Part shown: positions 52,297 to 59,255 of the stretch, in pieces | Layout of the letters: every line of letters starts with the position of its first letter | How positions within the stretch are numbered: position 1 is the first letter of the stretch | Origin: Meinhardsimonia xiamenensis | Lineage (GTDB): Bacteria > Pseudomonadota > Alphaproteobacteria > Rhodobacterales > Rhodobacteraceae | Assembly (NCBI RefSeq): GCF_900102905.1 | Contig: NZ_FNFV01000003.1 | Span: 186,001 to 250,000 of the forward strand | Length of the DNA: 64,000 nt | Reading direction: 5' to 3' | Program-made: the position numbers and the translations under genes | Notes under the pieces: model-generated | The model's database searches: none | The model's input: the letters and a program-made list of their open reading frames with translations, nothing else | What the model was told of the DNA's origin: nothing

Positions 52297-54465
<2,169 letters not shown>

Positions 54466-54585
54466 TGCGCTCCCCCGGGTGGCGCCCTCGGCGGCCTCCG
54501 GGCCCTCATATGCGAACCCGCGGCAAGGGTGAAGGGTGGCCGCGCCCGCGATGCGGCGCGACAGGCACAAGGGCCGGTGGATGAC

Positions 54586-54666
54586 AAAAAAAGAGGCCGA
54601 GCGGCAAGGCTCGGCCCAAGTCCAACAGGGAGGTAGAAGACCGTGCGAGAGGTCGCCGCGGCTTCT
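54586..54666 (-). ncRNA. Candidate trans-acting small RNA (resembles alpha-r8/MmgR, suhB motif)
   Basis: An untranslated RNA of about 80 nt on the minus strand. The predicted 5' end lies near 54666. Single-stranded CTACCTCCCTGTTGG is followed by a perfect 8-bp hairpin GGCCGAGC/GCTCGGCC and TCTTTTTTT, an intrinsic terminator. The CCTCCC loop can pair with ribosome-binding sites. The layout (about 80 nt, CCTCCCTGTTGG, GGGCC hairpin, U-run) resembles the alpha-r8 or MmgR RNA named for the suhB motif, known in Rhizobiales; that family match is from memory. The upstream promoter is listed separately. Confidence 0.7.
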
Positions 54667-54672
54667 GGAGCG

Positions 54673-54701
54673 CAGATAGTTGGCAAATGCAACGGAATCA
54701 A
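54673..54701 (-). promoter_or_regulatory. Promoter of the small RNA
   Basis: On the minus strand TTGATT (54696-54701), a 17-bp spacer, then TATCTG (54673-54678). This near-ideal spacing places transcription start about 54666, which fits an RNA of about 80 nt ending in the U-rich terminator. Confidence 0.6.
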
Positions 54702-54771
54702 GCGCGGATGGCGCCCCGGGGTGCAAAGCTGCCATGCGTGGAGTGCATGGCTTGCGCTGCGCGCACCGCGA

Positions 54772-55680
54772 TCAGGCGGCCTCTCCCTCGCGCATCCGGC
54801 GGCGGTGGGCGATCACCTCCTCGGTGACGAAGTCGCGGAAGGCGGCGATGCGGCGGGAGTGGCGCAGCTCTTCCGGATAGGCGAGATAGACCGGCACCTC
54901 TTCCGACTCGAGTTCCGGCAGGACCCTGACAAGCTGAGGAAAATCCTGTGTCAGATAATCGGGCAGAACGCCTATGCCGAGATCGTTGAGCACGGCCTGC
55001 AGCACGCCGAAATAGTTGTTCACGGTCAGCCGCGAACGCACGTCATGGGTCATCAGCAGCTGCACCAGCCGCGCCCCGGCCGAGACCTGCGGCGCCGAGG
55101 TGTTCTGGCACACCAGCCGATGCGACGAGATGTCCTCGATCCGCTCGGGCGTTCCGGCCGCCTCGAGATAGGCGGGCGTGGCGTAGAGGCGCATGCGCAC
55201 CTCCATCAGCTTGCGGCGGATCAGGTCCGCCTGGCTCGGTTCCTTCATGCGGATGGCGACATCGGCCTCGCGCATGGGCAGGTCGAGCACCCGCTCTTCA
55301 AGCATCAGGTCGATGTTGAGATCGGGGTAACGGTCGTAGAGCGCCTTCAGCCTTGGCGCCAGCCACAGCGTGCCGAAGGCAATGGTTGTGGTCACCCTGA
55401 GCTCGCCGAAGACCTCCTCGCGGCTGTCGCGGATGCGCGCCTCCGCCGCCTCGAGCCGCCGCGCCATGGCCTTGGTGGCGTCGAACAGAAGCTCGCCCTG
55501 TTCGGTGAGAATCAGTCCGCGCGCATGGCGGTGAAAGAGGGTGGTGCCGAGGCTCTCTTCCAGCGCCCGAATCTGTCGCGAGACGGCCGATTGGGAAAGA
55601 TGGAGCGTCTCCCCCGCATGGGTGAGGCTGCCGGCGGAGGCGACGGCGTGAAAGATCCTTAGCTTGTCCCAGTCCATCAT
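54772..55680 (-). CDS. LysR-family transcriptional regulator, divergent from indolepyruvate oxidoreductase
   Basis: A 302-aa LysR-type regulator. DNA-binding part: MMDWDKLRIFHAVASAGSLT, AGETLHLSQSAVSRQIRALE. Effector domain begins ELRVTTTIAFGTLWLAPRL. YFGVLQAVLNDLGIGVLPDY is a typical hinge region. It is divergent from the large 2-oxoacid oxidoreductase, and the intergenic region holds a perfect palindrome containing T-N11-A, so this regulator is the natural candidate to bind it. The inducer is unknown. Confidence 0.85.
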   Translation of the reverse strand: MMDWDKLRIFHAVASAGSLTHAGETLHLSQSAVSRQIRALEESLGTTLFHRHARGLILTEQGELLFDATKAMARRLEAAEARIRDSREEVFGELRVTTTIAFGTLWLAPRLKALYDRYPDLNIDLMLEERVLDLPMREADVAIRMKEPSQADLIRRKLMEVRMRLYATPAYLEAAGTPERIEDISSHRLVCQNTSAPQVSAGARLVQLLMTHDVRSRLTVNNYFGVLQAVLNDLGIGVLPDYLTQDFPQLVRVLPELESEEVPVYLAYPEELRHSRRIAAFRDFVTEEVIAHRRRMREGEAA

Positions 55681-55850: not shown

Positions 55851-58800
55851 ATGAGCCTGCGCGATGTGAGCCTTCACGACCGTTTCGATCTGCAGAAGTC
55901 GCCGGTTCTGCTGAACGGCACCCAGGCGCTGGTGCGGCTGATGCTGATGCAGAAGGCGCGCGACCGCGCGGCGGGGCTGAACACCGCGGGCCTCGTCACC
56001 GGCTATCGCGGCTCGCCCTTGGGCGGCGTCGATCAGCAGATGTGGCGCGCGCAGGCCGATCTCGAGGCGAATGACATCCGCTTCATCCCCGGCCTCAACG
56101 AGGATCTCGCCGCTACCGCGCTGTGGGGCACGCAGCAGGCGGAGCTGCGCGGCGAGGGGCGCTTCGACGGCGTGTTCGGCCTGTGGTACGGCAAGGGCCC
56201 CGGCGTGGACCGCTCGGGCGACGTGATGCGGCATGCGAACATGGCGGGCACCTCGCCCCATGGCGGCGTGCTGATGGCGATGGGCGACGATCACACCGGC
56301 GAATCCTCCACCACGCTGCACCAGTCCGACTGGGCGATGGTGGACGCCTACATGCCGGTGCTGAGCCCCGCCGGCGTGCAGGAAATTCTCGATTACGGCA
56401 TCTACGGCTTTGCCCTGTCGCGCTTCGCCGGCGTCTGGGCCGGGCTGAAGCTGATGAAGGACACGGTGGAGGCGACCGCCGTCGTCGATGGCCGGCCGGA
56501 GCGGATGCAGCTCATCACGCCAGACTTCGCGATGCCCGAAGGCGGGCTCAACATCAGGCTGATCGACACGCCGGTGGCGCAGGAAGCGCGCATGATCGAC
56601 TACAAGCGCTTCGCCGCCGAGGCCTTCGCCCGCGCCAACAGCATCGACCGGCGCGTCTGGGGGGCGCCGGGCGCGAAGATCGGCTTTGTCGCGGCGGGCA
56701 AGAACTGGCTCGATCTTGTCCACGCGCTCGAGCTTCTGGGGCTGGACGAGGCCGAGGCGCGGCGGCTCGGGATCACCACCTACAAGGTGGGCCAGACCTT
56801 CCCGCTCGACATGCAAAGCTTCCGCGAATGGGCCGAGGGGCTCGAGCTGATCGTCATCGTCGAGGAAAAGCGCAAGCTGATCGAGGTGCAGGCCAAGGAG
56901 GCGATCTTCGACGACCGCCGCGGCCGGCGCGTCTACGGCTGGCGCAACGACCGCGGCGAGGAGCTCTTCCCCACCCGCTATGCGCTCGACCCGGTGATGA
57001 TCGCCGAGAAGATCGGCGCCATCCTCATCGAGGAGGGGCGCGGCACCGAGGGTGTGAAGGCGGGGCTCCGGCGGATCGAGGAGGCCCGCCGCGCCGACAA
57101 TGCCCCCGAGATCGCCCAGCGCCTGCCCTGGTTCTGCTCGGGCTGCCCGCACAACACCTCCACGAAGCTGCCCGAGGGCAGCCGCGCCTATGCCGGCATC
57201 GGCTGTCACTACATGGTGCAGTGGATGGACCGCGAGACCATCGGCTTCACCCAGATGGGCGGGGAGGGGGCGAACTGGGTGGGCGAGGCGCCGTTTTCGA
57301 AGCGCGCCCATGTCTTCCAGAACCTCGGCGACGGCACCTATGAGCATTCGGGCGTGCAGGCGATCCGCTTCGCCGTCGCCACCAACACCAACATCACCTA
57401 CAAGATCCTCTACAACGACGCGGTCGCCATGACCGGCGGCCAGCCGCTCGAGGGCGGTCTGACACCCCAGCAGATCGCGCGCGAGCTTCTGGCGATGGGC
57501 GTGAAAAGGGTCGCGCTCGTCTACGATCCCAAGGAAGAGCTCGACTTGGCGAGCTTCCCGCCCGAAGTCGAGAAGCACACCCGCGACGAGCTTCTCGCGG
57601 TGGAAAGGAAGTTTCGGGACATCAGGGGCGTCACGGCGATCGTCTACGTCCAGACCTGCGCGGCCGAGAAGCGCCGCCGCCGCAAGCGCGGTGCCTTCCC
57701 CGACCCCGACCTGCGCGTTTTCATCGACCCCGACGTGTGCGAGGGCTGCGGGGACTGCGGCGTGCAGTCGAACTGCGTCTCGATCGTCCCGCTCGAGACC
57801 GAATTCGGCCGCAAGCGCGCCATCGACCAGTCCTCCTGCAACAAGGACTTCTCCTGCCTCGACGGCTTCTGCCCCTCCTTCGTCACCGTCAAGGGGGCGA
57901 AGATACGCAAGGCCGCGACGGTGGAGGTCGATGTGGGCCATCTGCCCGAGCCAGAGCTGCCCCCGATCGCGGGAACCTGGAACACGGTCATCACCGGCGT
58001 GGGGGGCACCGGCGTTGTCACCATCGGCGCGGTGATGGCCATGGCCGCCCATCTCGACGGCAAGGGTGCGGGCATGATGGAGATGGCGGGTCTTGCCCAG
58101 AAGGGCGGCGCGGTGGCGATCCACTGCCGCATCGGCGAAACCCCCGAGGCGATCAGCGCCATCCGCGTGGCCACCGGCGAGGCCGATGCGCTGATCGGCG
58201 GCGATCTCGTCGTGTCGGCCGGCGCGAAGACGCTGGCGCTCACCGCGCCGGGGCGCACCGGCGCGGTGGTCAATTCGCACGAGATCATCACCGGCCAGTT
58301 CACGCAGGACCCCGAATTCCGCCTGCCCGCCGAGCGGCTGCGCCTGTCTCTCGAGGCGCGCCTTGGCGCGCGGCTCACCCTGCTCGACGCGACCGAGATC
58401 GCGCGGCTCGCGATGGGCGACACGATCTTCTCCAACATGATCGTCTTCGGCGCGGCATGGCAGCAGGGCCTGGTGCCGCTCTCGCATGAGGCGATCCTGC
58501 GCGCGATCGAGCTCAACGGCGCGGCCGTCGAGCCCAACAAGCGCGCCTTCGAGCTCGGCCGCTGGGCCGCGCTCAACCCCGAGGCGGCGGCGGCGCTGGG
58601 CGGCGAGAGGGTGGCGCAGAAGCCCAGGACGCTTGCCGAGCGCATTGCCCTGCGCGCCGAGCACCTTGAGGCCTACCAGTCGAAGCGGCTCGCCCGGCGC
58701 TACCTCAAGCTTGTCGAGTCCGTCGAGGACGAGCGCCTGCGCGAGGCCATCGCCAAGGGCTATCACAAGCTCCTTGCCTGCAAGGACGAATACGAGGTCG

Positions 58801-59255
58801 CCCGGCTTCTCTCCCGCACCGCGGCCAAGGCGGCGGAGGCGTTCGAGGGTGATCTCGAACTCACCTACCACCTCGCCCCGCCGCTCCTTGCCCGCAAGGG
58901 CCCCGAGGGGCGGCCGAAGAAGCGCGCCTTCGGCCCCTGGCTTGCCCGCTTCCTGCCGCTGCTTGCGCGACTGAAGTTCCTGCGCGGCACGCCCTTCGAC
59001 CCCTTCGGATACACCCAGGAGCGGCGCATGGAGCGCGCGCTGATCCGTCAGTATGAGGCGGATGTCGCCCGGCTTCTCGACGGCGCGGCGGCGCGCAACA
59101 TGGAGGCGGCCGTGGCGCTGGCCGAGCTGCCGCTCATGATCCGCGGCTTCGGCCCGGTGAAGGCGGCAAATGCCGAGAAGGCGGCGAAGCGGCGAGAGGA
59201 GCTCTGGGCCGCCATCGAGGCGGGGCCCGCCCCGCTCCGGCAGGCCGCCGAATAG
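55851..59255 (+). CDS. Indolepyruvate ferredoxin oxidoreductase (fused, 1134 aa)
   Basis: A large TPP and Fe-S enzyme of the 2-oxoacid:ferredoxin oxidoreductase family that decarboxylates aryl-pyruvates to acyl-CoA. In one chain: N-terminal pyrimidine-binding region ([40 protein letters not shown]), a TPP/Fe-S segment ([17 protein letters not shown]), [12 protein letters not shown] with [20 protein letters not shown], a cysteine cluster [13 protein letters not shown] and [12 protein letters not shown], then the gamma domain [42 protein letters not shown] precedes ATG 55851. The usual ferredoxin partner is not adjacent. The closing 200 residues ([13 protein letters not shown] region) form the DUF-type C-terminal extension. 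Confidence 0.88.

Follow-up and report, generated by a model that had tools for sequence, protein, structure and literature searches.

A conserved RNA between a vtlR-type LysR gene and purL is probably the ortholog of the small RNA SorY in the Rhodobacteraceae

SorY of Rhodobacter sphaeroides is a trans-acting small RNA that has its own promoter, starts at genome position 1,632,642 (PMC6238624), depends on RpoHI/RpoHII and is bound by Hfq (PMC5036791). It affects the stability of the takP mRNA and limits malate import (PMC6238624, PMC5036791, PMC8307010, PMC7866481). SorX, which has its 5′ end at 2,598,224, follows the OmpR-like gene RSP_0847 (PMC6238624). AbcR1 and AbcR2 belong to alpha-r15, a family of the Rhizobiaceae and Brucellaceae (PMC3712013), and carry two anti-Shine-Dalgarno motifs, one in the loop of a 5′ hairpin and one before the terminator (PMC8844928); periplasmic binding proteins are among their targets, and AbcR2 is RpoH1-dependent (PMC8844928, PMC7486931). 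Their genes adjoin lsrB in S. meliloti (PMC8844928), a place for which mmgR was considered and rejected, and lie downstream of vtlR in Agrobacterium, the trxB-vtlR arrangement being described for the Alphaproteobacteria (PMC7486931). The alpha-r8 RNAs are defined by the 10-mer UUUCCUCCCU, a terminator and, usually, a neighbouring gene for FGase (N-formylglutamate amidohydrolase), MmgR being the only member that had been characterised before (PMC12559287).

The window, that is, the whole stretch of DNA that was analysed (64 kb), contains a LysR-family gene, a small RNA and purL on one strand, with the following features:

52297..54465, minus strand: purL, the downstream neighbour (Pfam AIRS domains; adjoins the RNA in many relatives)
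54586..54666, minus strand: SorY-type small RNA of about 81 nt, with the start predicted from the R. sphaeroides ortholog
54586..54617, minus strand: intrinsic terminator hairpin and seven Ts (terminator scan, pairing in orthologs)
54618..54634, minus strand: core ACCUCCCUGUUGGACUU, putative anti-Shine-Dalgarno pairing element (conservation; mostly predicted to be unpaired)
54635..54666, minus strand: 5′ hairpin, variable in sequence with the folding kept
54674..54702, minus strand: RpoH-like promoter CTTGAT-N17-CTATCT (sequence; score 11 of 12)
54702-54697 and 54679-54674, minus strand: its −35 element CTTGAT and, after 17 bp, its −10 element CTATCT (sequence)
54772..55680, minus strand: vtlR/lsrB ortholog of the LysR family, the upstream neighbour (Pfam LysR domains, orthology, trxB-vtlR order)
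55851..59255, plus strand: indolepyruvate ferredoxin oxidoreductase-like gene ('iorA'), the outer neighbour (Pfam POR and DUF6537; synteny)

Because the LysR protein of the window reached no NCBIfam cut-off among the best 25 of the 52 families matched, its identity as VtlR rests on orthology and on synteny with trxB.

The RNA element at 54666-54586 is real, and its conservation goes far beyond chance. An earlier note on this DNA had described an unannotated small RNA gene between the LysR gene and purL, with a −35/−10 pair at 17-bp spacing and a hairpin followed by seven Ts, and the parts were all located on the minus strand: the promoter, the anti-Shine-Dalgarno core and, at 54617-54586, the terminator. 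'Unannotated' is true of Rfam at gathering thresholds, with which one tRNA and nothing else was found across the 64-kb window. The core reads ACCTCCCTGTTGGACTT at 54634-54618 (minus strand), with CCTCCCTGTTGG at 54633-54622, and in the RNA the single-stranded core is ACCUCCCUGUUGGACU. The terminator hairpin (GGGCCGAGC...GCTCGGCCT, nine pairs, 54617-54594) is followed by the seven Ts at 54592-54586. Scanning of 54000-55200 gave one terminator compared with 0.7 in shuffles, so that the terminator by itself is no more than chance, and a sigma-70 scan gave no promoter at its threshold. The fold of the 80-nt RNA was stabler than every one of 200 shuffles (z −3.19), and the spacing from promoter to start agrees with the published start of SorY.

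In a lax Rfam scan of 351 bases, SorY (RF02651) was matched with 46.8 bits (E 1.7e-8, cut-off 111) and SorX (RF02784) with 39.9 bits (cut-off 46.6). The SorY cut-off was passed by just one of 295 family genomes (G075, 115 bits), and 279 of them, the source genome counted, have a match to the model at E≤0.001, 16 being left without one under strict filters; the threshold thus marks near-identity with the seed and not the gene family. The window RNA is filed as a SorY ortholog, not as an RF02651 match. In G075 the SorY match begins at contig position 1,632,645, which is 3 nt away from the start given in the literature, and the SorX match lies at 2,598,225; since both positions agree with the published ones, G075 is presumably R. 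sphaeroides. Its SorY locus has the order iorA (divergent), lysR, RNA, purL. This is also the order in the window, where the RNA comes after lysR and before purL with iorA divergent, and by position the window RNA is thus the ortholog of SorY. The core ACCUCCCUGUUGGACUU stands before the terminator in the window as well, and the promoter is conserved and RpoH-like, dependence on such a sigma factor being here a prediction from sequence.

The possibility that the window RNA is SorX itself was rejected, as its 39.9 bits fall below the cut-off of 46.6 and the source genome (G000) has a separate SorX ortholog at G000:C12:387490-387561, which exceeds the cut-off with 66 bits and follows a response-regulator gene. 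Two more candidate anti-Shine-Dalgarno RNAs were observed in this genome, at G000:C5:15319-15377 (-) and G000:C11:277938-278015 (-) (L146 and L147). Their SorX scores, 30.5 and 28.8 bits, are below the cut-off; they have CUUCCUCCCUG cores nearer the alpha-r8 10-mer and, together with SorY and SorX, would form four siblings like SisA-D in Caulobacter.

Conservation in related genomes, on which the earlier note had made its proposal depend, was found both in the 279 genomes matching the SorY model and in loci fetched through the LysR gene. Eighty named loci, which we take to be mostly Rhodobacteraceae, Paracoccaceae or genera belonging to the Rhodobacterales, were gathered using the LysR protein alone, with the RNA sequence unused. 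The core, with at most three mismatches, was present on the LysR strand in 75 of the 80, within about 330 nt downstream of the LysR gene in 74 of these and, in L071, 1.35 kb downstream and adjoining purL. Among the five loci without the core, L104 is a contig ending 76 bases after the LysR gene. A blastn match to the RNA was present in 30 of 61 genomes, again counting the source genome.

A set of 77 orthologs consisted of the 75 named loci, L111 and the window, with a core of at most two mismatches as the condition for inclusion. The first 16 nt of the core are identical in all 77 and the bases on both sides vary, an invariance that is partly due to selection since the orthologs were picked for the core; single core changes occur in three loci outside the set (L015, L023 and L133). 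The core was predicted to be unpaired in most of the 77, save for a 2-bp helix within it. Promoter scores of at least 10 of 12 were obtained for 47 of the 77 compared with 1.1 % of mononucleotide shuffles, the consensus used for scoring having been drawn by eye from the same 77. The 38 nt before the core had a mean folding z of −3.0 in the 77 orthologs, compared with −0.47 for nt 110-73 before the core, and a local 5′ hairpin of at least five pairs was formed in 56 of the 77 single-sequence folds; as MAFFT does not align this hairpin, energy z-scores were used for it and not covariation. All 77 have a terminator of at least six pairs. In the terminator alignment 97.0 % of the cells are paired and one pair has both its bases exchanged in 10 cells, AU to GC with the pairing kept in 10 of 40 aligned sequences. 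A covariance model built from 40 SorY sequences (R1; A1 uses 40 of the 77 orthologs) matched all of 61 genomes drawn from the order, every one of them Rhodobacteraceae. On 42 lysR loci outside its building set (347 kb) R1 found 37 SorY sites, below which there were just six antisense terminators and one match of 11.7 bits.

Within the class, 142 genomes were compared with the LysR protein of the window; 83 hold a match at E≤1e-40, mostly just one and mostly with 45-55 % identity, and 68 vtlR loci were taken from the 81 non-family genomes with a match, leaving out G043 and the 12 weakest. Of 28 non-family loci, 24 have a thioredoxin-reductase motif directly upstream of vtlR, and the motif was also present at 32 of another 40; three of the thioredoxin-reductase proteins were sampled, and all exceed the cut-off of TIGR01292. 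Many of the other families have, just after vtlR, an RNA with ACGUCUCCCAGACGUGAAGCCUCCCUGUUNNACUU and a terminator. A model built from 16 of these vtlR-linked RNAs outside the Rhodobacteraceae (R2) finds 20 of the 28 loci, 16 of which are its own training set, and 23 of the 40 fresh loci at E≤0.01, placing an anti-Shine-Dalgarno RNA at vtlR in 43 of 68 non-family loci; no Rfam family was over its cut-off in the 20 vtlR-linked loci scanned. R2 also recovers 39 of 39 SorY loci tested (20.7-37.2 bits), including the window (E 0.0021), and the 402 kb searched hold just one further match (E 1.0); it scores SorX at 38.6 and 31.1 bits. An R2-type RNA of 68.4 bits was also observed on a megaplasmid, Tistrella mobilis pTM3 (NC_017958.1, L399:2486-2566), with no vtlR or trxB within 2.5 kb, which counts against strict linkage.

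Like AbcR, the window RNA lies downstream of vtlR/lsrB. No conserved anti-Shine-Dalgarno motif was seen, by eye, in the 5′ hairpin of 40 aligned SorY orthologs, so that these do not have the two motifs of AbcR. The second AbcR motif, UUCCCCUC, was absent just downstream of vtlR in all 68 loci and was found twice, elsewhere in L349 and L383. As to the multi-copy feature of AbcR, the window locus has one copy, with siblings elsewhere in the genome, and the family genome G001 has a tandem second copy. In this genome a second RNA comes after the SorY-type RNA at the vtlR locus (L006:1320-1381 and L006:1501-1570); it scores 51.1 bits to SorX, over the cut-off, and resembles the tandem abcR1/abcR2 of rhizobia.

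Joining SorY with the vtlR-linked RNAs is plausible, and we lean slightly towards an account in which SorY is the Rhodobacteraceae branch of an ancestral anti-Shine-Dalgarno RNA downstream of the redox-linked vtlR/lsrB in the Alphaproteobacteria. Outside the family there would be two AbcR-like anti-Shine-Dalgarno motifs (a ACGUCUCCCAGACGU hairpin loop and CCUCCCUGUUNNACUU), of which the first would have been lost in the Rhodobacteraceae, where the gene would also have been put under RpoH, and AbcR of the Rhizobiales would be the best-known relative or a functional equivalent. It is possible, but rather unlikely, that convergence on an anti-Shine-Dalgarno core with a terminator, and not common descent, explains the likeness of SorY, alpha-r8, SorX and the vtlR-linked RNAs. 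Convergence could come about since CCUCC simply complements ribosome sites, and it agrees with the occurrence of anti-Shine-Dalgarno motifs in several sRNA families, of an R2-type RNA away from vtlR and of weak R2 matches in 14 of 30 alpha-r8 loci (E≤0.05, none above 21.9 bits); it sits poorly with an identity that reaches past CCUCCC (CCUCCCUGUUNNACU) and with the one genomic place after vtlR that SorY and the other RNAs share. The orthology of the window RNA with SorY is untouched by convergence of this kind.

The earlier note had likened the layout to that of the alpha-r8/MmgR (suhB) RNA and proposed the Rfam suhB covariance model (RF00519) as a check. The likeness did not hold up: the score was 31.8 bits compared with a cut-off of 41, the position of the alpha-r8 10-mer reads CUACCUCCCU in the window RNA, with 8 of 10 bases matching, and the FGase genes of the source genome are on contig 12 and the RNA on contig 8. 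Among 12 FGase loci from 10 family genomes, only that of G001 has a canonical alpha-r8 RNA (L220, 60.4 bits, cut-off 41), and the same genome has a SorY-type RNA. A LysR gene was sought at alpha-r8 loci and none was found; of 11 FGase loci scanned (L215-L225), 9 have a tRNA gene nearby. We consider it very unlikely that the window RNA is a member of alpha-r8 (MmgR/SisA family) controlling storage and carbon metabolism, since the coexistence of both kinds in G001 largely refutes this and R2 scores SorY loci at 20.7-37.2 bits and alpha-r8 loci at 21.9 or less, although the layouts are alike, RF00519 gives a match below its cut-off, and R1, a SorY-only model, picks up 20 of the 30 alpha-r8 loci at E≤0.05 and, when E is relaxed to 0.3, 27 of them, with few non-SorY matches in 347 kb of lysR loci. 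SorY-type and alpha-r8 RNAs are at most relatives.

The window RNA can hardly be just the 3′ end of the lysR mRNA or a purL leader: lysR, RNA and purL do share one strand and follow each other within about 310 nt, and SorX, a relative, is cut from a 3′ UTR (PMC6238624), but a conserved promoter stands directly 5′ of the RNA, a separate start has been mapped for the ortholog in R. sphaeroides (PMC6238624), the core is the most conserved part, and in L036 and L066 purL is more than 2 kb away with the RNA still beside lysR.

We conclude with considerable confidence that the window RNA is an ortholog of SorY, with an RpoH-like promoter and, by prediction, Hfq as a partner, a core that blocks ribosome sites and targets among solute-uptake genes. 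The takP gene of G075 was identified through its product, which matches PDB 2hzk along all 365 residues (E 7e-255); the entry itself is labelled SmoM, and the codes 2HZK/2HZL belong to a structure paper of 2007 that deals mainly with TakP (PMC1839085). The takP leader of G075 (GUCCACAAGGGAGG, GUCCACAAGGGAGGAAUGCCAUG) is complementary to the core at its ribosome site, GUCCA with UGGAC and AGGGAGG with CCUCCCU, so that the core, to judge by the letters, appears to face the ribosome site of its target, in line with the pairing that the earlier note had expected. The closest takP homolog in the source genome is 33 % identical, and its site, CAACGGGAGG, matches with a bulge.

Core pairing with the 14 TRAP binding-protein genes of the source genome, five of which had their frames picked by hand, had a median of −18.0, compared with −15.5 for 57 background starts of similar Shine-Dalgarno strength (p 0.006), these starts being mechanical ORFs and not curated genes. 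As a group the TRAP genes also paired more strongly than the full set of 328 background starts (p 4e-8) and than the 36 with the strongest Shine-Dalgarno sequences (p 0.035); with Shine-Dalgarno strength controlled, the enrichment is weak. With 150 background starts the true core paired no better than 30 shuffled cores (−11.7 vs −12.1).

Sites of the form CAGGGAGG-N2-9-ATG numbered 32 in the source genome (15 forward, 17 reverse) vs 2 for a reversed-pattern control, which is a weak control because Shine-Dalgarno sequences are enriched before ATG in any case. Thirty loci with CAGGGAGG sites were examined, one of which (L208) is the antisense of SorX, and five Pfam-checked genes (malic enzyme, TRAP DctQ, zinc alcohol dehydrogenase, an ABC ATPase and a branched-chain amino-acid permease) are only suggestive as targets. 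In 126 of 248 genomes there is a 13-base site without mismatch before an ATG; since all 30 loci fetched for such sites proved to be SorY/SorX-type RNAs read on the antisense strand, the search gave no conserved perfect target.

In the proposed mechanism, a heat-shock-type sigma factor of the RpoHI/RpoHII class would transcribe about 81 nt from the RNA's own promoter, and the 5′ hairpin and the terminator would keep the conserved core ACCUCCCUGUUGGACU open. Aided by Hfq, CCUCCC would pair with the Shine-Dalgarno sequence of target mRNAs, the bases directly 5′ of which would pair with GUUGGAC; this would block ribosomes and promote decay of the mRNA. The targets would chiefly be solute-uptake genes, as takP is in R. 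sphaeroides, and carbon uptake would thereby drop under oxidative stress. Under stress, the window RNA very likely keeps ribosomes off their sites on transporter mRNAs. What is reported for R. sphaeroides, namely where the RNA starts, that it binds Hfq, that it needs the sigma factors and that it acts on takP, is expected by analogy to carry over to the source organism; the core is presumably the part that contacts takP, and the target set may extend to further TRAP transporters.

SorY is already known, and the kind of molecule is not new. Among the matches listed in the open-access literature none joins SorY with AbcR or vtlR, nor was the family-wide conservation of SorY or its place beside vtlR found in print within the same scope, and the original SorY, SorX and MmgR papers may state part of this; the strings SorY and AbcR occurred together, among the matches listed, just in an 1821 book review. 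An RNA studied in one species is conserved through a large bacterial family, in which its orthologs are hidden by the RF02651 gathering score of 111 bits, and complementarity to the takP ribosome site is offered as a reason for the conserved core. If the proposed unification is true, the literatures on SorY in photosynthetic bacteria and on AbcR in rhizobia and brucellae would concern one old module of nutrient-uptake control tied to a redox regulator.

Compared with the known systems, the window RNA shares a hairpin, a CCUCCCU stretch and a GGGCCG terminator with alpha-r8 (MmgR/SisA-D, RF00519), whose 10-mer, FGase neighbour and model score it lacks and which coexists with the SorY kind in G001. 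It has the core and the terminator type in common with SorX (RF02784), whereas SorX is processed out of an OmpR-like gene's 3′ UTR (PMC6238624). With AbcR1/AbcR2 (alpha-r15, Rhizobiales) SorY shares the place adjoining vtlR/lsrB and anti-Shine-Dalgarno pairing, but AbcR has its first such motif in the loop of the 5′ hairpin and the second motif UUCCCCUC, whereas SorY has one motif and another sequence; the two-motif layout of AbcR is seen in the vtlR-linked RNAs outside the family. The closest system is SorY of R. sphaeroides (RF02651), from which the window RNA differs in the diverged sequence of its 5′ hairpin and in its score of 46.8 bits compared with the cut-off of 111, and with which it shares the locus order, an identical 17-nt core, the promoter type and the approximate length.
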